Source of the DNA: an uncultured Bacteroidota bacterium
Lineage (GTDB): Bacteria; Bacteroidota; Bacteroidia; Bacteroidales; UBA12481
DNA: 64,000 nucleotides
Direction of reading: 5' to 3'
Assembly: GCA_903851365.1 (NCBI GenBank)
Contig: CAINOB010000083.1
Span: forward strand, 1 to 64,000
Below the pieces are notes generated by a model, which saw nothing but the letters and a program-made list of their open reading frames with translations, did not search any database and was not told the DNA's origin. Positions 7,016 to 26,000 of the stretch are shown here, in pieces (position 1 is the stretch's first letter; each line of letters begins with the position of its first letter). The translations under genes and the position numbers were made by a program.

Positions 7016-7111
7016 CTGATACAAATGTTAAGAAACAAAGATGATAACCACCCCAAAATTAATAAAGTTTAAACCGGTGAACGGATGAAAATGAGCGGTG
7101 AACGGCGGCAG

Positions 7112-7141
7112 TTGATTATTTCCTCCTTTTCTCTATTTTCG
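7112..7141 (+). promoter_or_regulatory. Bacteroidota-type promoter candidate for the first PQQ-like propeller gene
   Basis: TTG at 7112-7114 and TATTTTCG at 7134-7141 are separated by 19 bases, close to the Bacteroidetes primary sigma consensus TTTG-N19/21-TAnnTTTG. The distance from the expected transcription start to the ATG at 7172 is about 25 bases. This is the only good promoter match I found at the head of the 7-20 kb cluster. Confidence 0.4.
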
Positions 7142-7171
7142 TCATCTCAAAACACTCTAACACCAACTCAT

Positions 7172-8538: not shown

Positions 8539-9966
8539 TTGACTAAACGATTAAGAAATATTATCCTCCTTGCGGCGATAGTCACGATGACCGCTTCATT
8601 CGTCTGGTGGCTGGCGCATGATCCGGTGCATGATTTTACCAAAAGCTTACCGGGGAAGGATAATAGACCGCCGCGTGCCGATTCGCTGACTGAGCTGGTT
8701 CATATTGGCGAATATTTTAATGCCGGCACCGGCACTATCACAGAAGGAATTGAAACCTGGCCGCGATTTCGCGGAGCGGATTTCGATAATATCAGCAAAT
8801 CGGGCAAAAAACTTATCGATGGCTTCGGAGGGCAGGTCCCGAAGATCCTATGGACAGTGGACCTTGGTGAAGGCCATGCCGGGGCTGCTATTTATAAAGG
8901 AGCCGTTTATGTTCTTGATTATGACGAGCTCAAACGAAGCGATATACTTAAGTGCATCAATCTGGCCGATGGCAAACTGGTGTGGGAACGAGGCTATCGC
9001 GTTACCATCAAAAGAAACCATGGCATGTCGCGGACCGTCCCTGCTGTCACTGAAAAATATATTGTATCGATTGGCCCGAGAGCTCATGTGATGTGCCTCG
9101 ATCGCCTGACCGGCAATGTTAAATGGGGCCTGGATGTTGAAAAAGAGTATAAAACGGAGATCCCTTTCTGGTACACCGGTCAGTGCCCTATCATTGAGAA
9201 TGACATGGTTTACGTTGCCACCGGGGGGAAAGCTCTGATGGTAGCTTTGGATTGCGAAACCGGAAAGAAAATCTGGGAAACTCCAAATCCGAAAAACTGG
9301 AAAATGTCGCATTCATCGATCATGCCCATGGAATTTGGCGGTCGAAAAATGTTAGTTTACAGTGCTGTCGGGGGTATTTGCGGCATCGCCGCGTCCGGAC
9401 CTGATGCGGGAACAGTACTCTGGTCATCCACTGCCTGGAACAAATCCGTGGTGGCGCCATCTCCGGTTTGCATGCCCGACGGGAAAATTTTTCTCACCGC
9501 CGGATACGGTGCCGGGAGTATGGTTTTGCAACTTGAATCATCAGGCAGTAACTTTACAGTCAAGATGATCGACCAATATCTTCCAGCGGAAGGATTGGCC
9601 TGCGAGCAGCAGACCCCGCTCTATTTCAAGGGTCATCTTATCGGCATAGAGCCAAAAGATGCCGGTGCCCTGCGAAATCAGTTGATCTGTGTAAACCCCG
9701 CCAATTGCCGCGTTCCGGTATGGAGCAGCGGCTCTGAGGCAAGGTTTGGATTGGGGCCTTACCTGATTGCTGATAATAAAATGTTTATATTGAATGACGA
9801 TGGAGTTCTGACCCTAGCGAAGCCGGACATTAAAAAATATATGCAGATCGATCAGATCAAATTGTTTGACGGGCAAGATGCCTGGGCCCCGATTGCCGTG
9901 GCCGACGGATATATGGTGCTGAGGGACTCGAAGCGGATGATAGCAATAAAACTAGCTGCTGATTGA
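8539..9966 (+). CDS. Membrane-anchored PQQ-like beta-propeller protein B
   Basis: 475 residues. The best start is TTG at 8539, giving TKRLRN plus a hydrophobic helix (IILLAAIVTMTASFVWWLA) as an uncleaved N-terminal anchor; the first ATG at 8587 would cut into that helix. After a linker, WPRFRGADFDNISKSGK is the W-x-R-x-R-G entry of a PQQ-like propeller, and LDRLTGNVKW, LDCETGKKIWE and similar strands follow. The propeller should lie in the periplasm. The stop TGA overlaps the ATG of the next gene by one base, so the two are translationally coupled. Cofactor content is unknown. Confidence 0.83.
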   Translation: MTKRLRNIILLAAIVTMTASFVWWLAHDPVHDFTKSLPGKDNRPPRADSLTELVHIGEYFNAGTGTITEGIETWPRFRGADFDNISKSGKKLIDGFGGQVPKILWTVDLGEGHAGAAIYKGAVYVLDYDELKRSDILKCINLADGKLVWERGYRVTIKRNHGMSRTVPAVTEKYIVSIGPRAHVMCLDRLTGNVKWGLDVEKEYKTEIPFWYTGQCPIIENDMVYVATGGKALMVALDCETGKKIWETPNPKNWKMSHSSIMPMEFGGRKMLVYSAVGGICGIAASGPDAGTVLWSSTAWNKSVVAPSPVCMPDGKIFLTAGYGAGSMVLQLESSGSNFTVKMIDQYLPAEGLACEQQTPLYFKGHLIGIEPKDAGALRNQLICVNPANCRVPVWSSGSEARFGLGPYLIADNKMFILNDDGVLTLAKPDIKKYMQIDQIKLFDGQDAWAPIAVADGYMVLRDSKRMIAIKLAAD

Positions 9967-10928
9967 TGAACAGAAAACTGATCATATCGATTTTACTGGT
10001 GCTCGCCATCATCATTGTCGCACTCGTTGTAATTGATGTGCTGAACTCAAGACCCGACAAGCGTCCGGACAATCCATATGAATATTCGGTCGACCAGTTT
10101 AAGTCGGTGGATTCAACCCTGATAAAATACACAGAAACGCTGGATTTCACTTTCGGCGACCTTGACCTTCGCGGAATTGCCTTTGCCAACGACCGTCTGT
10201 ATCTCGTAGAAGATAATTTCCTGGTGATCTTTTCCACCGAGGGTAAAAAACTGGCAAAATCGCCACTTCCTGAATCACCAACATGCGTAGCTGCCTCATC
10301 AAATGGAATTTACATCGGATTCGCGAACCATATCGCCCAGTATAATCTGGATGGCCTGCAGATAAAATCATGGGAATCACCGGGTGACAGTACGCTGATA
10401 ACCAGTCTGGCGGTGCAGGATTGCTACGTTTTTGCTGCTGATGCCGGAAAACGCCGGGTCCTGAAATACATGACCAATGGTGAGCTGACCGGAAGTTTTA
10501 CCGGGAAACGCGACAGTGCCGATTTGCATGGATTTATCATTCCCAGTCCCTATTTCGACCTGGCCGTGAACACTTTCGGGGAATTATGGGTAGTGAATCC
10601 GGGTCAGCATGCCTTTGAGAATTATACTTTCAACGGCGAGTTGCGGGGTTTCTGGGAAAAGACTGCCATGACGATTGACGGATTTTCCGGTTGCTGCAAT
10701 CCGGCCCATATGGCTGTTTTATCAGATGGATCGTTTGTTACAGCCGAAAAAGGAATGGTAAGAATCAAGGTTCACAAAGCATCCGGAGAGTTGTTGTCGG
10801 TGGTTGCACCACCGGAAGCTTTCGAAGGGGAGACACATGCTCCGGATCTGGCAGTAAGTCCTGCCGGGGATATTTACGCACTCGATTTCGAGCGCAAAAT
10901 GATCAGGGTATTTCAATTAAAAAAGTAA
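9966..10928 (+). CDS. Membrane-anchored NHL-repeat beta-propeller protein
   Basis: 320 residues from ATG 9966. A single N-terminal helix (LIISILLVLAIIIVALVVIDVL) anchors a six-bladed NHL-type propeller; blades such as ITSLAVQDCYVFAADAGKRR and HMAVLSDGSFVTAEKG are visible. A vicinal Cys-Cys in GFSGCCNPAHMA near residues 238-249 is notable: it might form a disulfide, ligate a metal, or bind a redox partner, but I cannot assign it. Coupled to propeller B upstream and two bases before the ferredoxin gene, so it probably belongs to the same membrane complex. Confidence 0.75.
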   Translation: MNRKLIISILLVLAIIIVALVVIDVLNSRPDKRPDNPYEYSVDQFKSVDSTLIKYTETLDFTFGDLDLRGIAFANDRLYLVEDNFLVIFSTEGKKLAKSPLPESPTCVAASSNGIYIGFANHIAQYNLDGLQIKSWESPGDSTLITSLAVQDCYVFAADAGKRRVLKYMTNGELTGSFTGKRDSADLHGFIIPSPYFDLAVNTFGELWVVNPGQHAFENYTFNGELRGFWEKTAMTIDGFSGCCNPAHMAVLSDGSFVTAEKGMVRIKVHKASGELLSVVAPPEAFEGETHAPDLAVSPAGDIYALDFERKMIRVFQLKK

Positions 10929-10930
10929 GC

Positions 10931-11506
10931 ATGGACCGGAAAAAATTCATAAATAATTCAGGTCGCCTGGTTCTTCTGGGCGGATTGGCTTACCTGACCG
11001 GGTCGATCATTTATCAGCGGAAGGTTTCGGCCTCTGGTAAATACGTCTGGCAGATTGATCCCTTTAAATGTACACAGTGCGGCCGGTGTGCCACCGAATG
11101 TGTCAGGGACCTTTCGGCCGTTAAATGCGTGCATGCATACTCGTTGTGCGGTTACTGCGACCTGTGCGGTGGATATTTCAAGCCCAATACTCACAAACTG
11201 AATACCGGAGCTGAAAGCCAGCTTTGTCCAACTGGTGCCTTGAACCGCAAATTCGTTGAAGAACCATTTTTTCAGTATACCATTGATGAAAAACTGTGCA
11301 ACGGGTGCGCAAAATGCGTGAAGGGTTGCGGATCATTCGGCAATGGATCCCTGCATCTTCAGATCCGGCACGACCTGTGCCAGAATTGCAACGAATGCTC
11401 AATTTCCAGAATGTGCCCTTCGAACGCCATCAGCAGGGTACCTATTGAAACAGCCTATCTGATTAAAGGTGATTTTAAAAAACCGGCTGTTTCGACTCCA
11501 AAATAA
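10931..11506 (+). CDS. Membrane-anchored polyferredoxin, up to four [4Fe-4S] clusters
   Basis: 191 residues from ATG 10931. The N-terminus MDRKKFINNSGRLVLLGGLA resembles a Tat leader (RRxFLK) with RK or KK in place of the twin arginine, followed by a hydrophobic helix to residue 30. Seventeen Cys follow, grouped at about 47/50/53/57, 66/73/76/79, 99, 123/126/129/133 and 150/153/156/162. This is the layout of NrfC/DmsB-like electron-transfer subunits. Which side of the membrane it sits on is uncertain because the Tat motif is not canonical. The stop overlaps the start of the NapH-like gene (TAATG), as in napGH-type pairs. Confidence 0.85.
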   Translation: MDRKKFINNSGRLVLLGGLAYLTGSIIYQRKVSASGKYVWQIDPFKCTQCGRCATECVRDLSAVKCVHAYSLCGYCDLCGGYFKPNTHKLNTGAESQLCPTGALNRKFVEEPFFQYTIDEKLCNGCAKCVKGCGSFGNGSLHLQIRHDLCQNCNECSISRMCPSNAISRVPIETAYLIKGDFKKPAVSTPK

Positions 11507-12762
11507 TGAAGTGGCTTAAAATCATATTGTTCTTGCTGCCACTGACACTGGCATTCCACAATCTGGATGCCCAGCAGCGTTTCCCGAAACCCGAGTTTCA
11601 CACCCATTATACACAGCCAACACCCACAACTCCCGAACCTCGCGGCGTTGGGATGGAGTTTTTTGATGTGCTGGTGCTTCTGGTAGTTCTTAGCCTGACC
11701 TCCTGGTTTGCCATCAGGAAAAGATCGCGCAACGGGATATTACTGCTGACGGTTTTCTCTGCCATCTACTTTGGCTTCTACCGAAATGGGTGTATCTGTA
11801 CGGTTGGATCCATTCAAAATGTGGCCCTGGCTTTGGCCGATCCCAAGTATGTGATCTCTTTGTATGCCTTATTGTTTTTTCTTTTACCCCTGATATTCAG
11901 TCTGTTTTTCGGGCGCGTTTTCTGCGGTGCCGCCTGTCCGCTTGGTGCCATTCAGGACCTTTTAATTTTTAACCCGATAACTATTCCGGCCTGGTTGCGG
12001 AAGACCCTGGGTTTTATACCCTACCTGTATTTAGGTCTGGCTGTTTTATATGCGGCCACAGGAACCGAATTCATTATCTGCCGCTACGATCCGTTTATTG
12101 GCATCTATCGCATGAATGGCCCGCACCTGATGATTTATCTGGGAATTGCCTTTTTACTGATGGGCCTGTTTATTGCACGCCCCTACTGCAGGTTCTTTTG
12201 CCCATATGGTGCTATCCTGAATGTTTTCTCACGCTTCAGCCGGCGACATTTATCTGTATTTCCGACAAAATGCATCCAATGCAAGCTTTGCACCACCTCC
12301 TGCCCATTTGAGGCAATCGATTTTCCGGATGAAGAAAAATCAAAACCTGATACGAAAACCAACTCCAGGAAGTTTATCCTTTATCTTGCCCTGATTCCGG
12401 TTTTGATGCTGGCAGGTGCATGGATCGGATCGAAATCGCATGTTTTCTTATCGAAAGCGCATCCGGATGTATATCTGGCAGAACTGCTCATTTCGCATCC
12501 CGAATTAAAAACCGATTCAAAAAATATTGATATCCAGACATTCCTTGCCTCAGGAAAATCACTGGAAACATTAGTTGCTGAGGCACAGGTTATCCGCGAC
12601 AAATTTAAGACCGGAAGCTGGATACTGGGAGCATTCCTGGGGTTGGTTATCGGCCTGATGGCAATGAACCAGGTGATTTTCCGGCGCAGGGAAGATTATC
12701 AGGCTAATAAAGGAAACTGTTACAGCTGCGCAAGATGTCTGGATTATTGCCCTGTAGAGTAG
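11506..12762 (+). CDS. NapH/NosR-type integral membrane Fe-S protein
   Basis: 418 residues. An N-terminal hydrophobic leader (to LDAQ) and about five further membrane helices are seen. Two C-x3-C-P motifs (FCGAACPLGAI and FCPYGAI preceded by YCR) are the NapH/NosR hallmark. A classical CIQCKLCTTSCP cluster motif follows near residue 258. The very C-terminus carries another, CYSCARCLDYCP, two residues before the stop. Such proteins pass electrons between the quinol pool or cytosol and periplasmic redox proteins. It is paired with the polyferredoxin and sits amid propeller proteins, so it is the likely membrane conduit. An insert of about 80 residues after the third cluster contains a further helix. 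Confidence 0.88.
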   Translation: MKWLKIILFLLPLTLAFHNLDAQQRFPKPEFHTHYTQPTPTTPEPRGVGMEFFDVLVLLVVLSLTSWFAIRKRSRNGILLLTVFSAIYFGFYRNGCICTVGSIQNVALALADPKYVISLYALLFFLLPLIFSLFFGRVFCGAACPLGAIQDLLIFNPITIPAWLRKTLGFIPYLYLGLAVLYAATGTEFIICRYDPFIGIYRMNGPHLMIYLGIAFLLMGLFIARPYCRFFCPYGAILNVFSRFSRRHLSVFPTKCIQCKLCTTSCPFEAIDFPDEEKSKPDTKTNSRKFILYLALIPVLMLAGAWIGSKSHVFLSKAHPDVYLAELLISHPELKTDSKNIDIQTFLASGKSLETLVAEAQVIRDKFKTGSWILGAFLGLVIGLMAMNQVIFRRREDYQANKGNCYSCARCLDYCPVE

Positions 12763-12795: not shown

Positions 12796-14769
12796 ATGGA
12801 CAAGAACGAAGAAAACAACAATAAAGGCGATAAGATAAAACTGGTCGGGAACCTGGTGACGGCGACGGGGATTTTCTGTCTGGCACTGGCACTGCTGCTA
12901 ATGATCAATTACTGGCATATCAGGCAAAATAAGCCACTCGAGACCGAATCACTGAAATCTTTGGTTCAGCAGTTTCAGGCCGATCCGGAAAGCGAGGTAT
13001 TAAAGAAGGAGATACGTAATCTCGACCTGTTGGCCCGAAAAGCTTTTTTCACAAGTAACTGGCAGGTAAAAACCGGGGCCTTTCTGTTGTTGCTTGGTGG
13101 TATCGCCTTCGCAACCTTGCTCAGGATTTTTCACACCCTGAAAGCCCGTATTTTGGAACCACTTATTGATGGAGTGGATTCAGGAATTACCCGGATGTTA
13201 TCACAACGCTGGATACTCATTACTGGTGGTGTTATGCTGGGATTGGCACTGACTTCATCATTCCTGACAACCGATTATCTTAAGTTTTACGAGGATACCG
13301 GGAACGTAGTGCAGGCGCCGCCACCAGAGTCCACTGTTAAGGTAGCTGCTGTTGACGGAGGACAGCAGACAGAAGATAAGAAGACGGCAGACGAGAAGAC
13401 CGGAGACAAGAAGACAGTAGACGAGAAGACGGTAGACGAGAAGACGGTAGACGGAAGTCAGATCGGTACTGAGGCACCCGGGAGCGCTGTCATCCCGACG
13501 AAAGTCGGGACCCCGTCCCTTACAGCGAATGCATCAGCGGAGAAAGCAGGAGGCAACCTTGGTACTGAAGTTACCAAGAGCGTTGTCATCCCGACGAAAG
13601 TCGGGACCCCGTCCCTTACCGCGGAATTTAAAAATCATCCATCTTTCCGCGGCCCGTGGGGACAAGGCACCTCCTACAGCACCGGAATTCCGGTTGACTG
13701 GGATGGACCGTCGGGGCGAAATATCAAATGGAATGTGGAGCTGAGCAAGAAAGGTTATAACTCTCCGGTTCTCTGGAACAACTTACTTTTTGTTGCCGGA
13801 GCAGATAATATATCAAGAGTCGTATACTGCTACAATCGCCTCGATGGCAAATTATTATGGGAACAGGAGGCAAAAGACATTCCGGGATCACCCCCGGCCG
13901 CTCCAAAAGTCACAGCTGATACCGGGCTCGCTGCACCCAGTGTAGCCACCGATGGCAAGCTCGTTTACGCAATTTTCGCTACCGGTGATCTCCTCGCGCT
14001 CGACATGGATGGAAAGCGCATCTGGGCAAAAAACCTGGGTGTACCGGATAACCATTACGGGCACTCCTCGTCACTTATTTGTCATAAGGATAAGCTGATC
14101 ATTCAGTTTGATACCAATAAAGGCGGACGGTTGCTGGCACTGAACAATGCAACTGGCGAAACTAGCTGGGATACACCCAGGAAATCAAAAATATCCTGGT
14201 CATCGCCGATGCTTGCCGAAATCGATGGAAAACTTCAGGTCATAACAACTTCTTCTCCAACCGTCGCCGGTTATGATTTTGAAACCGGAGCACAAATATG
14301 GGCTTTGGATTGTCTGTCTGGTGAGGTAGGTCCTTCAGCGGCATATGCCGACGGACTGGTATATGCAGCCAACGAATATGCCACGCTGGTGGCTATAAAA
14401 CCCGGACCAACACCAACAGCGGTCTGGAAATCTGATGAATACCTGCCGGAAGCTGCCAGTCCCGCCGTCAGCGACGGATTACTTTTTATAGCAACGAGTT
14501 ATGGAATGTTCGCGTGCTACGATGCTAAAACAGGACAGAAGCAGTGGGAAAAAGAATACGGGCAAGGATTTTATGGGTCACCCATGATAGCCGATGGCAA
14601 AGTATATGTAATGGAACGAAACGGGGCCATGCACATTTTCAAGGTCGATCGTAAATTAACCAGTCTGGGAGATCCGGCTTTGGGAGAAAAATCGGTAGTC
14701 ACGCCTGCATTTGCTGATGGAATGATTTATCTCAAAGGGGAGAAATACCTTTACGGTATAGGAAAATAG
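12796..14769 (+). CDS. Multi-helix membrane protein with C-terminal PQQ-like propeller (propeller C)
   Basis: 657 residues. Three hydrophobic helices lie near residues 17-36, 94-112 and 136-154. Next comes a low-complexity linker of about 100 residues (165-275), then a PQQ-like propeller starting HPSFRGPWGQGTSY and continuing to the C-terminus with strands such as YNRLDGKLLWEQ and DAKTGQKQWEK. The linker holds five pentads of type (K/E)KT-x-D and two copies of VIPTKVGTPSLT, which are translations of repetitive DNA rather than family sequence. The propeller is predicted periplasmic. It follows the NapH-like gene by 33 bases. Its role is probably electron exchange or sensing at the membrane surface; no catalytic assignment is possible. 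Confidence 0.82.
   Translation: MDKNEENNNKGDKIKLVGNLVTATGIFCLALALLLMINYWHIRQNKPLETESLKSLVQQFQADPESEVLKKEIRNLDLLARKAFFTSNWQVKTGAFLLLLGGIAFATLLRIFHTLKARILEPLIDGVDSGITRMLSQRWILITGGVMLGLALTSSFLTTDYLKFYEDTGNVVQAPPPESTVKVAAVDGGQQTEDKKTADEKTGDKKTVDEKTVDEKTVDGSQIGTEAPGSAVIPTKVGTPSLTANASAEKAGGNLGTEVTKSVVIPTKVGTPSLTAEFKNHPSFRGPWGQGTSYSTGIPVDWDGPSGRNIKWNVELSKKGYNSPVLWNNLLFVAGADNISRVVYCYNRLDGKLLWEQEAKDIPGSPPAAPKVTADTGLAAPSVATDGKLVYAIFATGDLLALDMDGKRIWAKNLGVPDNHYGHSSSLICHKDKLIIQFDTNKGGRLLALNNATGETSWDTPRKSKISWSSPMLAEIDGKLQVITTSSPTVAGYDFETGAQIWALDCLSGEVGPSAAYADGLVYAANEYATLVAIKPGPTPTAVWKSDEYLPEAASPAVSDGLLFIATSYGMFACYDAKTGQKQWEKEYGQGFYGSPMIADGKVYVMERNGAMHIFKVDRKLTSLGDPALGEKSVVTPAFADGMIYLKGEKYLYGIGK
13366..13465 (+). 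repeat. In-frame AGACGG-type minisatellite inside propeller C gene
   Basis: A degenerate array of 7-8-base steps (AGACGGC, AGACGAGA, AGACGGT) with an overall 15-base period. It stays in frame and encodes KKTAD, EKTGD, KKTVD, EKTVD, EKTVD. The same AGAC-centred unit appears in the spacer at 19840-19877 and, inverted, at 43763-43815. Confidence 0.8.
13488..13523 (-). repeat. Palindromic repeat element, copy 1 (in coding sequence)
   Basis: Stem CCCGAC/GTCGGG with the flanking conserved GTCATC and GGGACGGGG parts of the element (read on the minus strand). In the host gene it encodes VIPTKVGTPSLT. It is identical to copy 2 over at least 35 bases. Confidence 0.88.
13584..13619 (-). repeat. Palindromic repeat element, copy 2 (in coding sequence)
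   Basis: Same sequence as copy 1, 96 bases further on. Preceding bases (GGTACTGA...AGAGCG) also match those before copy 1, so a 96-base, 32-codon unit was tandemly duplicated after the element was already in the gene. Confidence 0.88.
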
Positions 14770-14863: not shown

Positions 14864-17203
14864 ATGAAGATTAAAGAGGAAATAGCTACAATATTATTGG
14901 AGACCGGTACTGAAAGGGAAGCGGTTATTCCTATTCTGCAGGCTATACAGAAGAAATACAATTATCTTCCGGAGGAGGCATTGCGGGAGGTTTGCAAAAA
15001 AACCACCATCACCCCCGAACAAATCATGGGGGTGGCCAGCTTCTATTCGCAGTTCCGGTTAAAGCCGGTCGGCAAACATATGATTCGCGTATGCGTTGGT
15101 ACCGCCTGTCACGTTAAAGGTGCCTCCCTGATTTTTGATGCCCTTCACCGTGAACTAAAACTTACCGGCGACGAAGAAACTGATGCCAGTGGCCTGTTTA
15201 CGCTGGAGAAAGTCAGTTGCCTGGGATGCTGTACTTTGGCTCCTGTAGTTCAGATTGATGGAGTGACCTATGGGCATGTAGCGCCGGATAAGGCAGGGAA
15301 AATCCTTACGGATTTTCTGGGGCAGAAGGGCAAGAAGGCAAAAAGTAAAATAAGAAATACAGAAGGTGAAAAGATTGAAGGGGAGATCAGAATTGGCCTG
15401 GGATCGTGCTGCGTAGCCAGCGGTAGTGAGTCTATCCGCGAAGCGGTGGAAGAAACGGTGAGTAATAACGGACTGCAGATAAATTTAAAATCAGTGGGTT
15501 GTGTGGGCATGTGCCACCAGGTACCCCTGATGGAAATTGTTCCGGCCAATGGAGTGCCGGTTTTATATACCCATGTTGATCCGAAGGATGTAAAGTCGCT
15601 GATCGAAAAGCATTTCAATCCACCAACTCTATTAAAAAGATTAAGTGTCAGGGCACAAACCCTGATCGAAAATATTCAGGACGACAGCCGTTGGGAAGGA
15701 GTAGAGCGATATACGTCGGATGTCAGGGAAAGGCATATCACCTCATTTCTTGGCCGGCAGGTTCCTTTGGCAACTGAATTCAGGGGAATAATCAATCCTC
15801 TTGACATCAATGAATACAAGAGCCGCGAAGGGTTTACTGCCTTGCAGAAATGCCTCACCGGGATGTCTCCAGATGAGGTTACCCGTGAGGTACTCGACAG
15901 CGGCGTCCGCGGTCGCGGAGGTGCCGGATTTCCGACCGGTAAAAAATGGGAGATGGTTGCCAGTCAGAAAGCCCAAGTGAAATATGTTATTTGCAATGGC
16001 GATGAGGGGGATCCGGGTGCCTTTATGGACAGGATGCTCCTCGAATCCTACCCATACCGGGTGATTGAAGGAATGCTCATCGCCGCTTATGCTGTTGGCG
16101 CAACAAAAGGCTATTTCTATATACGCGCCGAATATCCGCTTGCGGTGAAACGGATGACTGCGGCCCTGCAATTTTGCCGGGATGAAGGAATTATCGGACC
16201 CAATATTCTGGGCAGCGGATGGTCATTCGAGGTAAATCTATACGAAGGTGCCGGAGCATTTGTTTGTGGTGAGGAGACTGCCCTGATAGCCTCCATCGAG
16301 GGGAAACGGGGATTTCCTACACAGCGCCCGCCCTACCCCGCTGTGGAAGGATTATGGGATGCACCCACGCTGGTCAACAATACCGAGACTTTCGCGCTGA
16401 TTTCCTGGATTATCCGCCACGGAGCATCAGCTTTCCATAGTCTGGGAACAGCAAAAAGCAAGGGAACTAAGGTTTTTGCACTGGCCGGAAAAATTAACCG
16501 TGGAGGGCTTATTGAAGTTCCCATGGGTATAACCATCCGGAAAATTGTTGAGGATATCGGCGGAGGCATTGCTAACGGAAAAAAATTTAAGGCGATACAG
16601 ATTGGTGGTCCATCAGGTGGCTGTCTGCCTGAATCACTTGCTGATACACCGATTGACTATGAATCGATGGCTGAGCTTGGAGCCATGATGGGATCCGGTG
16701 GCCTGGTGGTCCTGGATGAGACTGACTGCATGGTTGATATGGCCCGTTATTTTCTCTCATTCACTCAAAAAGAGTCATGCGGAAAATGCACTTTCTGCCG
16801 TATCGGCACCCGACGGATGCTCGATATTCTCGATCGTCTGTGCACAGGCAAGGGCAAGGCTGCAGACCTGGATGAGCTGGAAAAACTTGCCGGATGGACA
16901 AAAAAGGGGAGTCTTTGTGGTCTGGGCCAAACGGCGCCCAACCCGATTCTCACCACCCTCCATTATTTCAGGGAAGAATATGAAGCTCATGTTACAGGCC
17001 ATTGTCCCACCGGCAAGTGCATGGACCTGATCACCTATACAATCAACGACAAGTGTATCGGCTGTACTTTGTGTGCCCAGAAATGTCCGGTGGATGCCAT
17101 CGAGTTCAGACCGCATGAGCAGCACGATATTATACAGGAAAAGTGTATTAAATGCGATACCTGCCGGCTGGTTTGCCCGACAGATGCCGTAATAAAGAGA
17201 TAA
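14864..17203 (+). CDS. NuoE-NuoF fusion with extra [2Fe-2S] domain and C-terminal 2x[4Fe-4S] ferredoxin
   Basis: 779 residues. Domains in order: NuoE-like thioredoxin-fold [2Fe-2S] domain (1-150; Cys near 77, 82, 119, 123); a second thioredoxin-like [2Fe-2S] domain (172-250; SCC at 181-183 and CVGMC at 213-217); NuoF-like NADH/FMN domain (290-620; GRGGAGFPTGKKW, CNGDEGDPGAFMDR); the NuoF [4Fe-4S] motif SCGKCTFCRIGTRR; and a two-cluster ferredoxin at the C-terminus (CIGCTLCAQKCP, CIKCDTCRLVCP). This is the HydB/HndC/StnB-type NADH-oxidising subunit with its NuoE partner fused. Cytosolic. Eight bases separate it from the flavoprotein gene that follows, its probable partner. No hydrogenase catalytic subunit is present. 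Confidence 0.93.
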   Translation: MKIKEEIATILLETGTEREAVIPILQAIQKKYNYLPEEALREVCKKTTITPEQIMGVASFYSQFRLKPVGKHMIRVCVGTACHVKGASLIFDALHRELKLTGDEETDASGLFTLEKVSCLGCCTLAPVVQIDGVTYGHVAPDKAGKILTDFLGQKGKKAKSKIRNTEGEKIEGEIRIGLGSCCVASGSESIREAVEETVSNNGLQINLKSVGCVGMCHQVPLMEIVPANGVPVLYTHVDPKDVKSLIEKHFNPPTLLKRLSVRAQTLIENIQDDSRWEGVERYTSDVRERHITSFLGRQVPLATEFRGIINPLDINEYKSREGFTALQKCLTGMSPDEVTREVLDSGVRGRGGAGFPTGKKWEMVASQKAQVKYVICNGDEGDPGAFMDRMLLESYPYRVIEGMLIAAYAVGATKGYFYIRAEYPLAVKRMTAALQFCRDEGIIGPNILGSGWSFEVNLYEGAGAFVCGEETALIASIEGKRGFPTQRPPYPAVEGLWDAPTLVNNTETFALISWIIRHGASAFHSLGTAKSKGTKVFALAGKINRGGLIEVPMGITIRKIVEDIGGGIANGKKFKAIQIGGPSGGCLPESLADTPIDYESMAELGAMMGSGGLVVLDETDCMVDMARYFLSFTQKESCGKCTFCRIGTRRMLDILDRLCTGKGKAADLDELEKLAGWTKKGSLCGLGQTAPNPILTTLHYFREEYEAHVTGHCPTGKCMDLITYTINDKCIGCTLCAQKCPVDAIEFRPHEQHDIIQEKCIKCDTCRLVCPTDAVIKR

Positions 17204-17211
17204 TTATCAAA

Positions 17212-18699
17212 ATGATTGAACTCCATATCGACGGGATAAAATTGAGTGTGGAATCCGGAACAACGGTGATGGAAGCTGCACGGCAACTGGATATTCAGGT
17301 TCCATCGATGTGTCATAATGGCGACCTTCCACATTTTGCCTCTTGCATGATCTGTATGGTAAAAGATGCGAAAAATGGCAAAATGTTCACCTCCTGCACG
17401 GTAAAGGCCACTCCGGGAATGGAGATCATCACCCTGGATGAGGAGATCCGTGAAGCCCGCAAAACAGCACTCGACCTGCTCCTGAGCGATCATGTGGGAG
17501 ATTGTGATGCTCCCTGTCAAATCAGCTGTCCAGCGCATATGGATATCCCGAGGATGAATCATTTATTGGCGCAAAGCAGGTTTGAAGATGCCTATAATGT
17601 TGTTATTCAGGATATAGCTCTCCCATCCATTCTTGGCCGTATTTGTCCGGCTCCCTGCGAAGGCGCATGCAGGAGAAATTCGGTGGATGAGGCAGTTTCG
17701 ATATGTTTTCTAAAGATGTATGCGGGGGACTTCATCCATCAGCAAAAAGCTAAACCCATGGGTAATTTCGCATTCAGCGACGGGGTCCCCGCTTCCGCGG
17801 CGATGACAACTCTTCGAGGGTCACGCGTTGCTGTCATCGGTTCCGGCCCTCATGGTCTTTCAGCGGCGTGGTACCTGCAATCTTTTGGCTATCAATGCAC
17901 GATTTTCGATAGGAATCCTTTACCCGGAGGCGCCCTGCGCTATTCAGTTCCCAGAAATTTGCTTCCAGAAGAAGTGCTCGATCTGGAAATTGAACGAATA
18001 AAACAGTCAGGAGTCATTTTCCAGATGAATGCCGAAATTGATCCGGAGCGGGTTAAGGAGCTGGAAAAAGAATTTGATGCCGTAGTTTATCCTTTGGAGA
18101 AGCCCTTGAAAATGGCGATCAAGGCTTCGGCATTTGGTAAGGAAGCCGCCTGGGAAACCAGGCAGAAGTTATCGGGACAGCCAATAATTGGCGAACCAAA
18201 AATGTTCAATTCACGTTTCGGTAAGCTTCAGGAATCCGAAGCCCTTGAATACCTCAAAGAATCAGTTCCGGGCGATCGCATCGAACCGGCCAATGGATTC
18301 ACTCACGGAATGACAGCCGAAGAGGTTGTTGCCGAAGCCGCCAGATGCCTCCACTGCGAATGCCGTAAGGCTGATGATTGTTTGCTCAGAATTTATTCAA
18401 ATGAGTATCAGGCCGATCAGAAACGTTTTCAGGGACCTGAACGCAAACCCGTTACCAAGCAATTTCAGCATGACACAGTTGTTTATGAACCTCAGAAATG
18501 TATAAAATGCGGTATTTGCGTCAGGATAACGGCAAAACATCAGGAAGAGTTCGGACTCACTTTTATCGGGCGCGGTTTTGATGTGGTCATTGGGGTGCCA
18601 TTCAGCGAATCGATCAGGGAAGGTTTGACTCATACCGCCGGGGAAGCAGCCGATGCATGTCCCACCGGAGCTCTGGCAAGGAAAGGAGGAAGAAAATGA
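17212..18699 (+). CDS. [2Fe-2S]/GltD-like flavoprotein lacking an evident NAD(P)H-binding domain
   Basis: 495 residues from ATG 17212. Order: plant-type [2Fe-2S] domain (1-75; MCHNG, CMIC, SCTV); GltD-type Fe-S region (CDAPCQISCPAHMDIPR, then GRICPAPCEGACRR); FAD-binding motif VAVIGSGPHGLSAAWYLQ near 203 with DRNPLPGGALRYSVP. Then, at FDAVVYPLEK, the usual second Rossmann fold (GGGN-x-AMD, NAD(P)H) is missing. The sequence passes straight to a tail like that of NfnB/StnC proteins (RCLHCECR) and a C-terminal cluster motif (CIKCGIC...CPTGAL). A palindromic repeat contributes DGVPASAAMTT just before the FAD domain. Likely partner of the NuoEF-like protein; its stop overlaps the next start (ATGA). 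Confidence 0.85.
   Translation: MIELHIDGIKLSVESGTTVMEAARQLDIQVPSMCHNGDLPHFASCMICMVKDAKNGKMFTSCTVKATPGMEIITLDEEIREARKTALDLLLSDHVGDCDAPCQISCPAHMDIPRMNHLLAQSRFEDAYNVVIQDIALPSILGRICPAPCEGACRRNSVDEAVSICFLKMYAGDFIHQQKAKPMGNFAFSDGVPASAAMTTLRGSRVAVIGSGPHGLSAAWYLQSFGYQCTIFDRNPLPGGALRYSVPRNLLPEEVLDLEIERIKQSGVIFQMNAEIDPERVKELEKEFDAVVYPLEKPLKMAIKASAFGKEAAWETRQKLSGQPIIGEPKMFNSRFGKLQESEALEYLKESVPGDRIEPANGFTHGMTAEEVVAEAARCLHCECRKADDCLLRIYSNEYQADQKRFQGPERKPVTKQFQHDTVVYEPQKCIKCGICVRITAKHQEEFGLTFIGRGFDVVIGVPFSESIREGLTHTAGEAADACPTGALARKGGRK
17779..17825 (+). repeat. Palindromic repeat element, copy 3 (in coding sequence)
   Basis: GACGGGGTCCCCGC, then CGGCGATGACAACTC and CGAGGGTCAC: the element consensus in plus orientation, with a somewhat worn stem. 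It encodes SDGVPASAAMTTLRG between the Fe-S and FAD domains of the flavoprotein. Confidence 0.8.
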
Positions 18700-19838
18700 G
18701 AGGGATATTGATATTGATGCTACTGCTGAATGTCGTGGTAAAGGATGCGTTCCCGACTTTCGTCGGGATGACAGAAAAGGGCTCCGCGGGAGGGCAAAAT
18801 CCTGCTATTTCCCGCGGGAATCAGGCGTTGACAGGTGAGGTACATGAAAACCTTCCTGCGAAAATCAAGCAGCTCTGGTCATTTAAAGCGGCCGATGAAA
18901 TGAAGGCATCGCCGGTAGTGAGCGGTAACATTGTGGTCGCCGGAGGTATGGACGGATCGGTCTATGCTCTGGACCTGAACGGAAAATTGCTGTGGAAGTT
19001 TGCTACAGGAAACGGAATCGAAGCACCGGCACTCATCCTCGACAATACGGTTTATGTTGGAAACCTTACTGGAATATTGTTTGCTCTGAACCTGAAAGAT
19101 GGTAAAGAAAAATGGAGATATGCCACTGAAGGCCAGATTAGCGGATCAGCCAACTGGTGGAAATCAGGCAATTCAACCCGCATTCTGGTAGGCAGTTACG
19201 ACTACAACCTGCATTGTGTTGATGCTGCAACAGGTAAAGTTGTTTGGAAATACGAATCCGATAATTTCATTAATGGCGCCACAAGCTGTGTCGATGGAAA
19301 TGCAATTTTCGGAGGCTGCGACGGATATTTACATATTGTGGATATCGCTACCGGCAAAGCTTCAGCCAAAATTGATGTATCAACGTACGTTCCCGGATCC
19401 ACACCAACATCAGACGGGTTATCTTATGTTGGCGATTACGATGGAGGTTTTACCTGTGTGAGCATCAAGGAGAAAAAAATCAGCTGGAAGTATAAAAATG
19501 AAAAGACCCAGTTACCATTTGTAGCTTCCGGAGCTATCTCAGGGGACCGGGTGATTACAGGAAGTCGCGATAAGCAAGTTTATTGTTTCAGTAAAACAGA
19601 TGGCAAATTGCTGTGGAAGTACAATACCGGTGAAAAAGTTGATGCCTCACCCCTGGTTTGTCAGGATAAGGTTTTAGTTGCGAACATGCGCGGCGATCTT
19701 GTTTTACTAAAATTAAATGATGGCACCCTGGTCTGGACCTACGAAACAGGTACACCTGTTTTTAGCAATCCGGCGGTATACCAGGGTAAGATATATTTGT
19801 GCGGGCAGGATGGGACGGTTAGATGTTACGGGAAGTAA
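18696..19838 (+). CDS. Exported PQQ-like beta-propeller protein D
   Basis: 380 residues from ATG 18696, which overlaps the previous stop and follows a strong AGGAGG at 18686-18691 (unusual here, where most genes lack one). The leader MRGILILMLLLNVVV is cut short by KDAFPTFVGMTE, a translated palindromic repeat, and a Gly/Ser-rich stretch follows. From about residue 55 regular propeller strands run to the end (DLNGKLLWKFATGNG, DAATGKVVWKYESD, SKTDGKLLWKYNTGE), arranged like BamB or PQQ-like proteins. Probably periplasmic, though the signal-peptide cleavage site is unclear because of the insertion. It is coupled to the cytosolic flavoprotein, which ties the propellers to the NADH-side enzymes. 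Confidence 0.82.
   Translation: MRGILILMLLLNVVVKDAFPTFVGMTEKGSAGGQNPAISRGNQALTGEVHENLPAKIKQLWSFKAADEMKASPVVSGNIVVAGGMDGSVYALDLNGKLLWKFATGNGIEAPALILDNTVYVGNLTGILFALNLKDGKEKWRYATEGQISGSANWWKSGNSTRILVGSYDYNLHCVDAATGKVVWKYESDNFINGATSCVDGNAIFGGCDGYLHIVDIATGKASAKIDVSTYVPGSTPTSDGLSYVGDYDGGFTCVSIKEKKISWKYKNEKTQLPFVASGAISGDRVITGSRDKQVYCFSKTDGKLLWKYNTGEKVDASPLVCQDKVLVANMRGDLVLLKLNDGTLVWTYETGTPVFSNPAVYQGKIYLCGQDGTVRCYGK
18738..18780 (+). repeat. Palindromic repeat element, copy 4 (in coding sequence)
   Basis: TAAAGGATGCGTTCCCGAC, loop, GTCGGGATGACAG: the element consensus with a perfect CCCGAC/GTCGGG stem. It encodes KDAFPTFVGMTE at the signal-peptide boundary. A second GC-rich inverted pair (CCGCGGGA and TCCCGCGGG, about 18783-18821) follows at once. 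Confidence 0.82.
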
Positions 19839-20994: not shown

Positions 20995-22281
20995 ATGAGG
21001 ATCATACATATTATTCCCGGTTCAGGCGGCAGTTTTTACTGTGGCAACTGCCTGCGCGACAGCAAATATGTTGTTGCTTTGCGAAAAATGGGGCATGAGG
21101 TGGTAAAGGTACCGATGTATCTACCGCTGTTTTCTCACGATGATCTGCAGGAAATTCCAGTATTTTACGGTGCTATAAGCATATATCTCAAACAGTTATA
21201 TCCCATTTTTGAGAAAGCGCCAGCATGGTTTGACAATCTATTGAATTCCAAGCCGATGCTTAAGTTTGCTGCCGGTATGGCTGGGTCTACCAGCGCCAAG
21301 GGTTTGAGTGAGATGACGATATCTATGCTTAAGGGCGAACACGGACGCCAGCATGAAGAACTCGATCGGATGATCGATTGGATTAAGGAACACTATCCGG
21401 CTGACATTGTGCATCTCTCGAATGCTTTATTGTCCGGATTGGCCCCACGGATAAAAGAGAGGCTGGGGGTTAAGGTATATTGCTCCCTTCAGGATGAGGA
21501 TGTTTGGATCGACGTTATGAAGCCCGAGTTCCGTCAGGAGGCTTGGGATCTGATGCACGAAAACGCCAAGTCCATTGACCGGTTTATTGGTGTCAGCCAA
21601 TATTTTTCCGAACTGATGAAGGAGCGGATTAGTTTGACCGATGAACAGATTAAAACTATTTATCTCGGCATTGATCCTACTGATTATGAATATATTCCAA
21701 TATCAGAAAAGCCCAGAAATATTGGATTCATTTCCAGAATGTGTGCAGAAAACGGATTGGATATCCTGGTGGAGGCTTTTATCAGCCTTAAAGACAGACC
21801 CGGATTTCAGGATGTCAAATTGATTTTAACCGGTGGATCGACTGGTGAAGACAAGCACTATATCGGTAAGCTAAAGAAGAGAATTTCAGATTGTGGATTA
21901 AATGACGAGGTTGAATTCCAGGCAAATTTTGAAGAAGAGGGACGTAAGGAATTTTTCAGAAAGGTTTCAGTGTTATCTGTTCCGGTACGTATCGGTGAAG
22001 CATTTGGCCTGTACCTTCTGGAATCAATGGCTTCAGGTGTACCCGTGGTTCAGCCAGCGCTGGGCGCCTTTCCGGAGATTATCCGAAAGTCGGGCGGAGG
22101 AGAAACTTATGAGCCAAATCAACCTGAAATACTGGCTGATTCACTTGCCAAATTATTACCGGACACAGTACGGCTGTCAGAATTGAGCAAGGCAGGTCAT
22201 GATGGGGTTCACCGCTATTTTGATATTTTCACCCATGCCAGGGAATTGATTTCCGTTTATGAATCCGATATAAAATCATGA
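20995..22281 (+). CDS. Glycosyltransferase, GT4-like (GT-B fold)
   Basis: 428 residues. The N-terminal IIHIIPGSGGSFYCGNCLRDSKYVVALRKMGHEV is a GT-B donor/acceptor loop with a Gly-rich turn. The C-terminal half has the GT4 elements NIGFISRMCAENGLDILVEAF, LILTGGSTGED and EAFGLYLLESMASGVPVVQPALGAFPEI, with the E-x7-E arrangement. It transfers a sugar from a nucleotide donor to an unknown acceptor at the cytosolic face. Its stop overlaps the start of an ABC ATPase gene, so glycosylation and an ABC exporter are linked; a lipid or envelope glycan is a reasonable guess. Confidence 0.88.
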   Translation: MRIIHIIPGSGGSFYCGNCLRDSKYVVALRKMGHEVVKVPMYLPLFSHDDLQEIPVFYGAISIYLKQLYPIFEKAPAWFDNLLNSKPMLKFAAGMAGSTSAKGLSEMTISMLKGEHGRQHEELDRMIDWIKEHYPADIVHLSNALLSGLAPRIKERLGVKVYCSLQDEDVWIDVMKPEFRQEAWDLMHENAKSIDRFIGVSQYFSELMKERISLTDEQIKTIYLGIDPTDYEYIPISEKPRNIGFISRMCAENGLDILVEAFISLKDRPGFQDVKLILTGGSTGEDKHYIGKLKKRISDCGLNDEVEFQANFEEEGRKEFFRKVSVLSVPVRIGEAFGLYLLESMASGVPVVQPALGAFPEIIRKSGGGETYEPNQPEILADSLAKLLPDTVRLSELSKAGHDGVHRYFDIFTHARELISVYESDIKS

Positions 22282-22961
22282 GCGATATGGATACCATCCT
22301 TCGAATGGAAGGGGTGAGAAAAGAATTTGGCGTACCTGGCACTTCTTCGCGCCGGGTTGTTCTCTCTGATATAAATCTGACAGTCGGGAAGGGCGCAAGT
22401 ATTGCGATTACCGGACCATCAGGATCAGGCAAAACCACCCTCCTGAATCTCATCGCTGTACTGGACAAACCGGATCAGGGACTGGTTGAATTTAAGGGTA
22501 AAAATCTGGCATCTATGTTTCGTTCCGAGCTTGATACCTATCGAAACAGATCAATCGGCTTGGTTTTTCAACTTCACCATTTATTGCCGCAATGTACTTT
22601 AATGGAAAATATCCTGGTCCCTACGCTGGCCTTACCGGATAAATCGAAGAGGAAATTTTATCTCGACAGGGCCAGTGAACTAATAAAACGCATGGGCCTT
22701 TGGGACGTTCGTAACCAATATCCAGGAACACTTTCCGGAGGCGAATGCCAGCGAACCGCAGTTGCAAGGGCTCTTATCAATGATCCTGACTTGTTGCTTG
22801 CTGATGAACCCACCGGTGCCCTGGATCGCGAAAACGCACTTAAACTCATTGATTTGCTGACTGAGATCAACAAGATTGACGGAAAGACAATTATCCTGGT
22901 AACACACTCCGCGGAGATAGCATCCAGGATGAGTAGAACTGTTGATATCTCGACATTATGA
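22278..22961 (+). CDS. LolD/MacB-type ABC transporter ATP-binding protein
   Basis: 227 residues. Walker A GPSGSGKTT near 42-50, Q-loop VFQLHHLLPQCT, signature LSGGECQRTAVARAL and Walker B LLLADEPTGALD are all present, in the arrangement of LolD/MacB/FtsE ATPases that drive FtsX-type permeases. Starts within the ATGA overlap with the glycosyltransferase gene. Its permease partner is the next gene, 121 bases downstream, separated by a GC-rich repeat. Confidence 0.93.
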   Translation: MSDMDTILRMEGVRKEFGVPGTSSRRVVLSDINLTVGKGASIAITGPSGSGKTTLLNLIAVLDKPDQGLVEFKGKNLASMFRSELDTYRNRSIGLVFQLHHLLPQCTLMENILVPTLALPDKSKRKFYLDRASELIKRMGLWDVRNQYPGTLSGGECQRTAVARALINDPDLLLADEPTGALDRENALKLIDLLTEINKIDGKTIILVTHSAEIASRMSRTVDISTL

Positions 22962-23082: not shown

Positions 23083-26000
23083 TTGAGTAAATTTAGATTT
23101 ATTCTAAGCAGCTTGTGGCATTATCGCTGGCGTAACCTAATCGTAGCGCTGGGGATGGCTATTGGCATGGCTGTGATTACCGGAGCTTTAGTGACCGGTG
23201 ATTCTGTGCGGTCAGGACTTCAGAACCTGGTTAGGTTACGCCTGGGAAAAGCAGATCTTTCGATTTCATCCGGTGACCGCTACCTTACCGATTCTTTATC
23301 GGTCAGGATGTCGGCCAAGCTGGGAATTCCAACAACTGCAGTGCTGCAACTCAAAGGATCAGCCGCATCCGGTGGAGGAGCCATAAGGTTACCTAAAGTA
23401 GATGTGTACGGCATTGATCGATCTTTCCGAGAGGTTACCGGTCCAAACACCTTCACTTCTCCACTGGAAGCAGATGAAGCCGTTATCAACGATAATCTTG
23501 CGTCGCGACTGGATGTTAAGGAAGGCGATGAAATTCTTATCCGGATAAATAAACCCGGACCAGTGCCTATCGATGCCCCCTTTGTATCCAATGAAGAAAA
23601 TATCGTTTCTGCTACCCTGACTATCAAAGCCATAGCAACGACTAATCAGGTCGGCCGCTTTCATTTGCAAACTACGCAGGCAGCTCCGTTCAATGTATTT
23701 CTCAGCAAAAAATACCTGCAGAAACTTTGCGGAATGAATGGTTTGTCCAACCTGATCCTTCTGTCGGGAAATGGTAAGGTAACCAGTATGCAAGCCGAAA
23801 AGGCGCTGTCCGAAGTTCGGACCCTGCGCGATGCCGGATTATATCTGGAAAAACATTCGACTACCGGCAAATGGATTCTCAGGACTCCACGGGTATTTTT
23901 CGATCAGCCAGCCATGAAAGCTATTGAATCTTATCCAGCTGATAAAACATTGTATTTCAGCTATTTTGTTAATGAATTTCGTGACGGAAACCAAACCACC
24001 CCTTACTCATTTGTATCAACCTTACCATCCAGCCAGATTAAACCCGGAGAAATCATGGTCAATCAGTGGCTTGCCGATGATCTTGGGGCAAAAAAAGGTG
24101 ATTCCATTTCGATCAGCTATTTCATGGTGGGACCCTTGCGCAATCTTACCGTTGAAAAAGCCCGGTTCCTGATTTCCGGAATATTATCGATGGACGATCC
24201 GCGTTGCGATCGTTTGCTCATGCCCGAGATCCCCGGATTATCCGATGCCGGCAATTGTCGCGATTGGGAGACCAGCATTCCCATTGATCTGGGGAAAATC
24301 CGCGACAAGGATGAGAAATACTGGAAACTTTTCAGAGGAACCCCTAAAGCACTTATCAATTCCGAAGCAGCTGCGGAATTGTGGCAAAACCGATTTGGGA
24401 AATATACACAGGTTCGTTTTGCTGCTTCCTCAAATCAAGCCGATATTGAATCATACATTTTGAGCCGTCTTCGGCCTTCTGACACGGGAATTCAGTTCCA
24501 CGAATCTTATAAGGAAGGCTTGGCTGCTGCGGCCAGTGGAGTAGATTTCAGCGGGCTGTTTCTGGGGTTAAGCTTTTTTCTCATCGCCGGCGGAATCATT
24601 CTCGTCGTCCTTCTTATCAGGCTGGGCCTCGAAAGTCGTCTGGCCCAGACTGGCACTTTGCGGGCCATTGGTTGGCCCGAACGGAAGATTCTTCGAATAT
24701 ATCTTTGGGAAAACAGCCTGGTTGCACTTGTCGGAACCATCATCGGACTTGGCCTTACCTGGTTGTATACAATATTAATATTCAAAGCGCTGAACGGAGT
24801 CTGGAACAGTATTGTATTGACCGACACATTACATCCCGTATTTAAAAGTATTACCATGGCATCCGGCATAGCCATTAGCCTGGTGGTTTCAGTTAGTTCA
24901 ACCTGGTTCGTCCTACTCCGATTTTTCCATCAGAAGAGCTCCAATCTCTTGCAGCGGAGAAAATTAAATGAAGCAGGAAAACGAAAAAACCTGCTTAAGA
25001 TTTTCTCCACCGCCATTATTGCCATTGCGATTGGTATCACGATATATGGTGTTATCCGGTTAAAAACTGTTGGCCCCACTTTCTTCTTTTCCGCCGGCAC
25101 ATTGATGCTCAGTGGACTTATTCTTGCAGCTATTCACCTCTTCCGTTATCAGGATATAGGTTTCAATCCCTCGTTAAATTTATGGAGGCTCGGGCGCAGC
25201 AATCTCCGGCGAAACAGTAACCGCAGTTTATCAGTCATCATGCTCTTTTCCATCGGAATGTTTTTAGTTATAGCCATCGGAGCCAACAGATCTGACATAG
25301 ACCCGGGAGGTACCGGAGGATTCCTGCTATATATGGAAACCACTGTGCCGGTGCCCGACAACCTGAACAATCCCCTGGTCAGGGCAAAGTATGGGCTCGA
25401 GACCCCATCGGAATTTGTTCAGATGAAAATTCTTGCCGGAGATGATGCCAGCTGCCTGAACCTGAATCGTGTACATAATCCGCCAATTCTTAGTGTGCCA
25501 AAAGGCTCCTTAGAAGGCAGGTTCCAGTTTCTTTCGCAATTAAAAAAGGGCTCGGCTGATGACAACTGGAAAATCCTGGAGCAGGACTTGCCAGGTGGCG
25601 CTATACCAGCAGTTGCCGATCAGACAGTGATTCAATGGGGACTTGGGCTTAAACCCGGAGATACCCTGAAATATAAAGCCGAAAACGGAGACATCGTAAA
25701 TATTGTGCTCATGGGCGGTCTTTCCAATTCGATATTTCAGGGGAACATCCTGATTTCAGAAGCACAATTTATCCGGCATTGGCCCTCAGTAAGCGGGACT
25801 AACCTCTTCTTAATTTCTGCAGATCCTGAGATGGTGCAGCCGGTCAAAAATGAAATAAATAGAGTTTTCCGGGACCATGGCACTGATCTGTTGCCCATTG
25901 CGGATAAGCTCGCAGCGTTCAATTCGATAGAAAACACTTATCTGTTTGTTTTCCTGGTGATGGGTGCCCTGGCTATGCTTTTGGGAACATTTGGCCTTGC

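Follow-up and report, generated by a model that had tools for sequence, protein, structure and literature searches.

A StnC-like Fe-S subunit that lacks the NADPH domain and half of the FAD domain, encoded in a redox gene cluster of Bacteroidota and Verrucomicrobiota

The gene at positions 17212..18699 (+ strand, 495 amino acids) of the 64,000-nucleotide stretch of DNA analysed here (hereafter, the window) encodes a BfuA/StnC-like Fe-S subunit that has no NADPH domain and whose FAD domain is reduced to its first half. As judged from alignments, the lack of the NADPH domain is shared across a syntenic family represented in two phyla, whereas the peculiarity of the window protein itself is the additional loss of half of the FAD domain. 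The first-pass annotation of this DNA is upheld in that the protein is StnC-like and its NADPH domain is gone, but is incomplete, as this loss is not confined to the window protein. The protein is probably the BfuA-type (StnC-derived) Fe-S wire of a Bfu-family complex in which the third partner is a membrane module and not NADPH.

Domain architecture and the deleted parts

The subunit consists of a [2Fe-2S] ferredoxin domain (17212..17490, residues 1-93, with Cys 34, 45, 48 and 62), a GltD/DPD-type Fe-S helical domain (17491..17745, residues 94-178, with His94 and Cys 98, 102, 106, 145, 149 and 153), the first half of an FAD Rossmann domain (17818..18096, residues 203-295, with the GSGPHG and PGG motifs), the deletion junction together with the last helix of the FAD domain (18097..18201, residues 296-330), and a C-terminal Fe-S region (18307..18681, residues 366-490, with Cys 379, 382, 384 and 390 and Cys 430, 433, 436 and 483), all on the + strand. 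A Pfam search detects Fer2_4 (residues 1-74), Fer4_20 (98-178), the start of a Rossmann domain (about 203-277) and Fer4_Nqo3 (423-488), along with a partial match to Pyr_redox_2 that stays under the cut-off. PF13510 and PF22117 score over the cut-off, so that the protein contains at least the 2Fe-2S and 4Fe-4S ferredoxin domains by which BfuA is defined.

The nearest solved proteins are 8oh5_C (StnC), 9bov_A and 9n5u_A, with alignments that flank a gap on both sides; in the alignment to the A subunits of StnABC/NfnABC, this gap is located where the NADPH domain sits. The AlphaFold2 model of the window subunit (mean pLDDT 82.5, pTM 0.79) contains a single, incomplete Rossmann domain and no second one, which is the outcome of a check that the first-pass annotation had proposed. 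Foldseek matches the model to StnC (8oh5_C) with an E-value of 2e-31, and VIA-align matches its whole length to 9bov_A (Z 30.2, 463 aligned residues, 3.4 A) and its residues 98-322 to NfnL, 5jfc_L (Z 23.0, 216 aligned residues, 1.9 A). The match spans residues 3-678 of 9bov_A, a chain of 1178 residues; the FdhF-like C-terminal domain of bacterial StnC is absent, and the window protein stops after a single C-terminal [4Fe-4S] motif. The NADP(H)-binding Rossmann domain is absent from the sequence, the alignments and the model of the window protein.

The motifs GSGPHG and PGG are kept whereas GGGNxAMD is missing, and the distance from the 'DAV' strand to the RCLxC motif is 89 residues, compared to 299 in the StnC encoded in the same genome, that is, 210 residues are missing. 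The initial impression that RCLHCECR directly follows FDAVVYP has to be corrected given that these 89 residues lie in between, among them the final FAD-domain helix, AIKASAFGKEAAWE. The gap is made up of two deletions. The first one removes the NADPH domain and is found in 102 of 104 relatives; the second one, of about 40 further residues, removes the last strand of the FAD domain with the 'G-D' motif and is found in the clade of the window protein, which accordingly falls short of the complete FAD domain of StnABC/Nfn-Bfu. The junction is common to the window and three other metagenome-assembled genomes (MAGs; L005, L006 and L007), and its presence in four genomes rules out an assembly or frameshift artefact. 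Together, these comparisons support the loss of the NADPH domain.

Relocation of the NADPH domain to a separate neighbouring gene is rejected as well: Pfam detects no GltD-type NADPH domain in any gene neighbouring the subunit in the window, nor in ten genes that immediately precede the subunit gene at seven sampled relatives and that encode four GDSL lipases, two 23S rRNA intervening-sequence proteins, one DUF1016 protein, one zinc alcohol dehydrogenase and two proteins without a match. At two loci, L016 (5343-5828) and L019 (7599-7976), proteins of the 23S rRNA intervening-sequence type (PF05635) are encoded between NuoEF and the Fe-S subunit.

The NuoE-NuoF partner, the gene cluster and the predicted electron path

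The NuoEF partner noticed at the outset adjoins the subunit gene as a NuoE-NuoF fusion (BfuC+BfuB-like, 14864..17203, + strand) with conserved cluster-ligand cysteines and a C-terminal 2x[4Fe-4S] domain. With Pfam counterparts used for the InterPro domains that define Bfu, the fusion contains the BfuB domains PF01512 (FMN/NADH), PF10589 (NADH_4Fe-4S) and PF14697 (4Fe-4S dicluster) over their cut-offs, as well as the NuoE-like domain of BfuC, PF01257, at its N-terminus (E 6.5e-53). The SLBB domain (PF10531) scores 22.7 bits against a cut-off of 27, and the respective region aligns without gaps to the solved B subunits; the B part matches 9n5u_B, 9bov_B and 8oh5_B. Its alignment with StnB/HydB takes in the FMN and NADH regions, the [2Fe-2S] region at the N-terminus and the dicluster region at the C-terminus, and its ligand cysteines are conserved in 83 of 87 rows at the weakest position and in 86 or 87 at most positions (a count without L197-L232). 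By sequence, the fusion thus retains the FMN, NADH-site and Fe-S ligand motifs of the electron-bifurcating StnAB/HydBC core. One Verrucomicrobiota genome (L177) carries two NuoE-NuoF fusion genes in tandem. The genome of the window also encodes a complete StnABC on another contig (C17, L145) and two more loci with HydB-like matches (C12, L146), so the window complex need not be the transhydrogenase of the cell.

Both genes belong to a cluster with a conserved order, on the + strand of the window: PQQ_2-type beta-propeller proteins a (7085..8383) and b (8539..9966, with a hydrophobic N-terminus), an NHL-repeat protein (9963..10928) with an N-terminal hydrophobic anchor, a NapG/MauM-like polyferredoxin (10931..11506) with four CxxCxxC motifs, a NapH-like membrane ferredoxin with six hydrophobic segments (11506..12762), a protein with three hydrophobic segments and PQQ_2-type beta-propeller c (12796..14769), the NuoE-NuoF fusion, the subunit, beta-propeller protein d with a hydrophobic N-terminus (18696..19838; its start overlaps the stop codon of the subunit as ATGA), a GT4 glycosyltransferase (20995..22281), an ABC transporter ATPase (22278..22961) and an FtsX/MacB-type permease (23083..26319). 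The polyferredoxin, in which Pfam detects only Fer4 domains, is labelled NapG-like here. The NapH-like protein matches the NapH/MauN family TIGR02163 with an E-value of 6e-11, at 42.3 bits against a curated cut-off of 213. A BBP2-like porin is also encoded inside the cluster (19904-20914). A search for PqqC in the same genome finds no match, but the controls are silent too, and the result has no bearing on the propellers.

The cluster is conserved in Bacteroidota and Verrucomicrobiota, with many Verrucomicrobiota loci carrying fewer of its genes. Upstream of NuoEF, propeller c is found at 68 of 72 testable loci, NapH at 56 of 64, NapG at 42 of 56 and the NHL-repeat protein at 20 of 29; the subunit follows downstream at 65 of 78 loci, with propeller d (48 of 70), GT4 (40 of 64) and the ABC ATPase (41 of 64) next door. 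Only loci with enough flank are counted, and these are lower bounds because the open reading frame calls miss genes in G+C-rich contigs; at L030, no NuoEF frame is called. Nine NuoEF loci lack an adjoining subunit gene. Four of these stop at a contig edge (L110, L128, L143 and L177); in four of the other five genomes the subunit is encoded elsewhere, with NuoEF not at a contig end, and in the fifth (G423, 82% complete) only StnC-like and shorter subunit matches are found. Similarly, 8 of 36 further Verrucomicrobiota loci, part of them short contigs, have no subunit match near NuoEF (L218, L222, L223, L225 and L227-L230). At two of about 105 loci, L130 (867 aa) and L043 (687 aa), a single protein contains both the subunit and propeller d, joined by one hydrophobic segment; the one in L043 resembles a lipoprotein signal.

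From the hydrophobic N-termini and general knowledge of these families, the NapG-like protein and the propellers are predicted to be periplasmic, and electron transfer to the NapG/NapH-like proteins would fit the gene order. In the proposed mechanism, the third redox partner NADPH is replaced by the membrane module (NapH-like and NapG-like proteins and propellers) encoded alongside, and electrons would move in single-electron steps through the Fe-S chain, in one direction or the other, linking the probably electron-bifurcating NADH/ferredoxin core with the membrane or periplasm, without a hydride step in the window-type subunit. In StnABC, the bifurcating flavin is not the FAD of StnC, from which electrons reach the StnAB core by way of C7, C6, C5, C4 and C3 (PMC10482914); by homology, clusters C7 to C3 would be kept and the FAD-NADPH end lost. 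The remaining FAD half would be mainly a scaffold, discarded wholly in at least two lineages, and at a few loci the wire itself would be shortened from the flavin end. The fold match to StnC, the domain states, the ligands, the G-D Asp, the NuoEF cysteines, the gene order, the fusions and the separate StnABC of the same genome all argue for such a complex; on the other side, adjoining genes do not prove physical coupling, fusions are rare, NapG, propeller d, GT4 and the ABC ATPase adjoin at a smaller share of loci, and some NuoEF loci have no subunit gene nearby.

A plain NADH- or ferredoxin-linked bridge to the membrane, non-bifurcating and functionally comparable to Rnf or Nqr, would also fit the loss of the known third substrate and the neighbouring redox proteins of the membrane and, probably, the periplasm. 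We find this alternative doubtful given that the additional [2Fe-2S] motif at the N-terminus and the dicluster motifs at the C-terminus are both retained in the B part, whereas clusters B2-B5 are reported to be missing in non-bifurcating homologues (PMC9304861).

The preferred reading, a Bfu-family complex with a membrane module as the third partner, is best appreciated against the known systems. StnABC/Nfn-Bfu (8oh5 from Sporomusa ovata, 9bov from Caldicellulosiruptor and 9n5u from Thermococcus sibiricus) share with the window system the [2Fe-2S] plus GltD-inserted Fe-S architecture, an equal set of ligands along the wire and a homologous, NuoF-like B subunit; the window system differs in that it lacks the NADPH domain, the second FAD half and the FdhF-like C-terminal domain, in the fusion of the B and C parts, and in its membrane/propeller gene cluster. 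Bfu types 2-4 (Wor-, Bam-, NiFe-, Nuo- and Rub-Bfu), as far as described in the accessible text of PMC9304861, likewise combine a BfuBC core and a third module that serves only to relay electrons to or from additional subunits; in the window system, NapG/NapH-like ferredoxins together with beta-propellers would take the place of these subunits, and this text names no such combination. It lists 57 clades of the Bfu family, 17 of them without an obvious function, and the window system may belong to one of these 17. NfnB, GltD and dihydropyrimidine dehydrogenase have the GltD-type Fe-S domain and the first FAD half in common with the window protein but contain complete FAD and NADPH domains, whereas both hydride-handling parts are gone from the latter. 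NapGH/NosR-type systems likewise include a NapH-like subunit with Fer4_5 and an adjoining polyferredoxin, but in the window these are encoded with an NADH-type Bfu core, and the NapH score is far under the curated cut-off. Neither the cluster nor the loss series is described in the titles and abstracts of open-licence papers found for Stn/Nfn, Bfu, NuoEF/NapH and vestigial flavin domains; the accessible part of an iron-limitation study of Bacteroidetes (PMC10434189) contains no such cluster either.

Domain states and cluster ligands among the relatives

A scan of genome contigs yields 41 loci. With the NuoE-NuoF fusion as the query (E<=1e-220), matches are detected in 63 of the 295 genomes of the order to which the window belongs, 42 of which (counted from the table) have one uninterrupted frame over both parts; in a 43rd genome, the match is visible only from residue 336. 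At the same threshold, 15 of 146 genomes match in the order of a Verrucomicrobiales MAG and, at E<=1e-230, 37 of 337 in its phylum; among 198 genomes sampled from the phylum of the window, an uninterrupted full-length match is present only in the window's own genome.

Among the 104 relatives compared (67 from the first sets and 37 from the Verrucomicrobiota sets), NADPH and FAD domains are both present in 2, the FAD domain only in 82, a class that takes in degenerate forms (L132, L136, L220 and L224), the first FAD half only in 7 and no FAD domain in 13, the states of L217 (FAD-less), L205 and L206 (both half FAD) having been set by eye against the script. Excluded before counting were six duplicates, the incomplete rows L037, L040 and L044, subunit copies at L187, L188, L189 and L191, and partial matches in L212 and L213; L211, which is cut by a contig edge, was kept. 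The full NADPH domain is found in two Verrucomicrobiota rows, L182 and L186, the latter covering Pyr_redox_2 end to end. The half-FAD rows are the window, L005, L006 and L007, and, in Verrucomicrobiota, L199, L205 and L206, whereas the FAD-less rows comprise 8 from Bacteroidota and 5 from Verrucomicrobiota.

Of the 104 relatives, 103 retain the 19 Cys/His cluster ligands, as does the StnC of the window's own genome. The retained motifs, on which the cofactor count rests, provide ligands for five clusters: a [2Fe-2S] cluster, an N5-like His/Cys3 cluster, two GltD-type [4Fe-4S] clusters and one C-terminal [4Fe-4S] cluster. In our own assignment of ligands, the [2Fe-2S] cluster would be bound by C34/45/48/62 and the C-terminal one by C430/433/436/483, the N5-like cluster by H94/C98/C384/C390, which flank the inserted GltD module, the distal GltD-type cluster by C102/C153/C379/C382, and the proximal one by C106/C145/C149 with one further ligand. 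The N5-like assignment is supported by L231 and L232, where the whole GltD module is absent, HxxxCxxCxxxxxC runs on without a break and what is left of the subunit forms one protein with NuoEF. The only exception to ligand conservation, the FAD-less subunit encoded at L211:1-843, lacks exactly Cys 106, 145 and 149, and this joint loss supports the assignment of the proximal cluster; Cys 98, 102, 153, 379, 382, 384 and 390 are retained, and the contig ends before the last four ligands. Hence, just the flavin-proximal cluster appears to be lost in L211. The lysine equivalent to the StnC cluster ligand K170 was considered as a marker of the flavin domain but had to be rejected, being replaced by histidine in the NADPH-bearing rows and variable in Verrucomicrobiota. 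The NuoEF frames of L231 and L232, with the fused mini [2Fe-2S]/N5-like/4Fe-4S subunit, are found in the same kind of gene cluster.

The FAD remnant and the number of losses

In the clade of the window protein, dN/dS of the FAD half is 0.05-0.10 (four of the five pairs are computable), compared to 0.03-0.18 for the Fe-S parts and 0.16-1.19 for the linker 179-202. The half FAD domain is under purifying selection and, given that its dN/dS resembles that of the Fe-S parts, the remnant shows no decay, and binding of FAD or an adenine nucleotide, with a part in electron transfer, may persist. If so, the half domain, binding FAD or its AMP half, would be a working redox or sensing site in which the internal flavin accepts electrons one by one from the wire and donates them to a partner protein and not to NADPH. 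Compatible with this possibility are, besides the low dN/dS, the GxGxxG motif, PGG and the acidic residue that follows strand 2, all retained in the window's clade, and the presence of both FAD halves in 82 of the 104 relatives. It is nonetheless rather unlikely: the G-D strand is missing in 7 rows, the G-D Asp, which both NADPH-bearing rows contain, is replaced in each of the 60 NADPH-less FAD-domain rows of the first NuoEF tree set in which it could be read, and the 13 rows without any FAD domain imply that this domain is not essential to the function of the family. In the set of 104 relatives, this position holds Glu in the FAD-only rows L198, L202 and L204, and L220 and L224 read AAED. Probably, the FAD remnant is kept as a scaffold. 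That the gene is a degenerating StnC paralogue without a present function, as the stepwise loss of domains might suggest, is very improbable because purifying selection extends along the whole protein except for the linker 179-202, all 19 ligands are kept in the window's clade, the frame is open in all four clade members and synteny is conserved.

In the 100-row NuoEF tree, for which L037 and L044 were also set by eye as FAD, the FAD-less state requires 7 changes, 5 of them forced by starred branches. The AU test rejects a single origin of all 12 FAD-less rows in the tree (p 9e-123), but the 8 Bacteroidota FAD-less rows fit as one clade (p 0.63), with that tree scoring higher; the claim is therefore limited to at least two complete losses of the FAD domain, as read from these phylogenies. 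The half-FAD state, present in two phyla, likely has two origins (p 0.087 for one clade in the AU test). In subunit trees rooted on StnC, the NADPH-bearing rows branch first, also with the Fe-S columns alone, whereas in NuoEF trees these rows are nested inside Verrucomicrobiota; either a retained NADPH domain with several losses or a later replacement of the subunit gene fits the trees, which are quick searches with long branches flagged in both subunit trees and in the 100-row NuoEF tree.

Taken jointly, these observations tentatively suggest, at somewhat less than even confidence, a membrane-bound Bfu class of Bacteroidota and Verrucomicrobiota that would couple NADH and reduced ferredoxin (or the reverse) across the membrane, via NapGH-like ferredoxins, to a periplasmic assembly of beta-propellers, with complete loss of the FAD domain at least twice and an A subunit in stages: NADPH and FAD domains, FAD, half FAD, none, flavin-proximal cluster lost, and no GltD module. 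If true, this would be a new kind of third partner for electron-bifurcating enzymes and would tie cytoplasmic NADH/ferredoxin to the periplasm in both phyla. The graded series would then amount to a natural experiment that shows what a flavin-linked Fe-S subunit can do without after the loss of its substrate, and would make the role of the non-bifurcating FAD testable.

A minor observation concerns the locus L036, the contig of which is titled Alphaproteobacteria; it is nearly identical here to the Bacteroidales MAG L035 and is probably mis-named or mis-binned.
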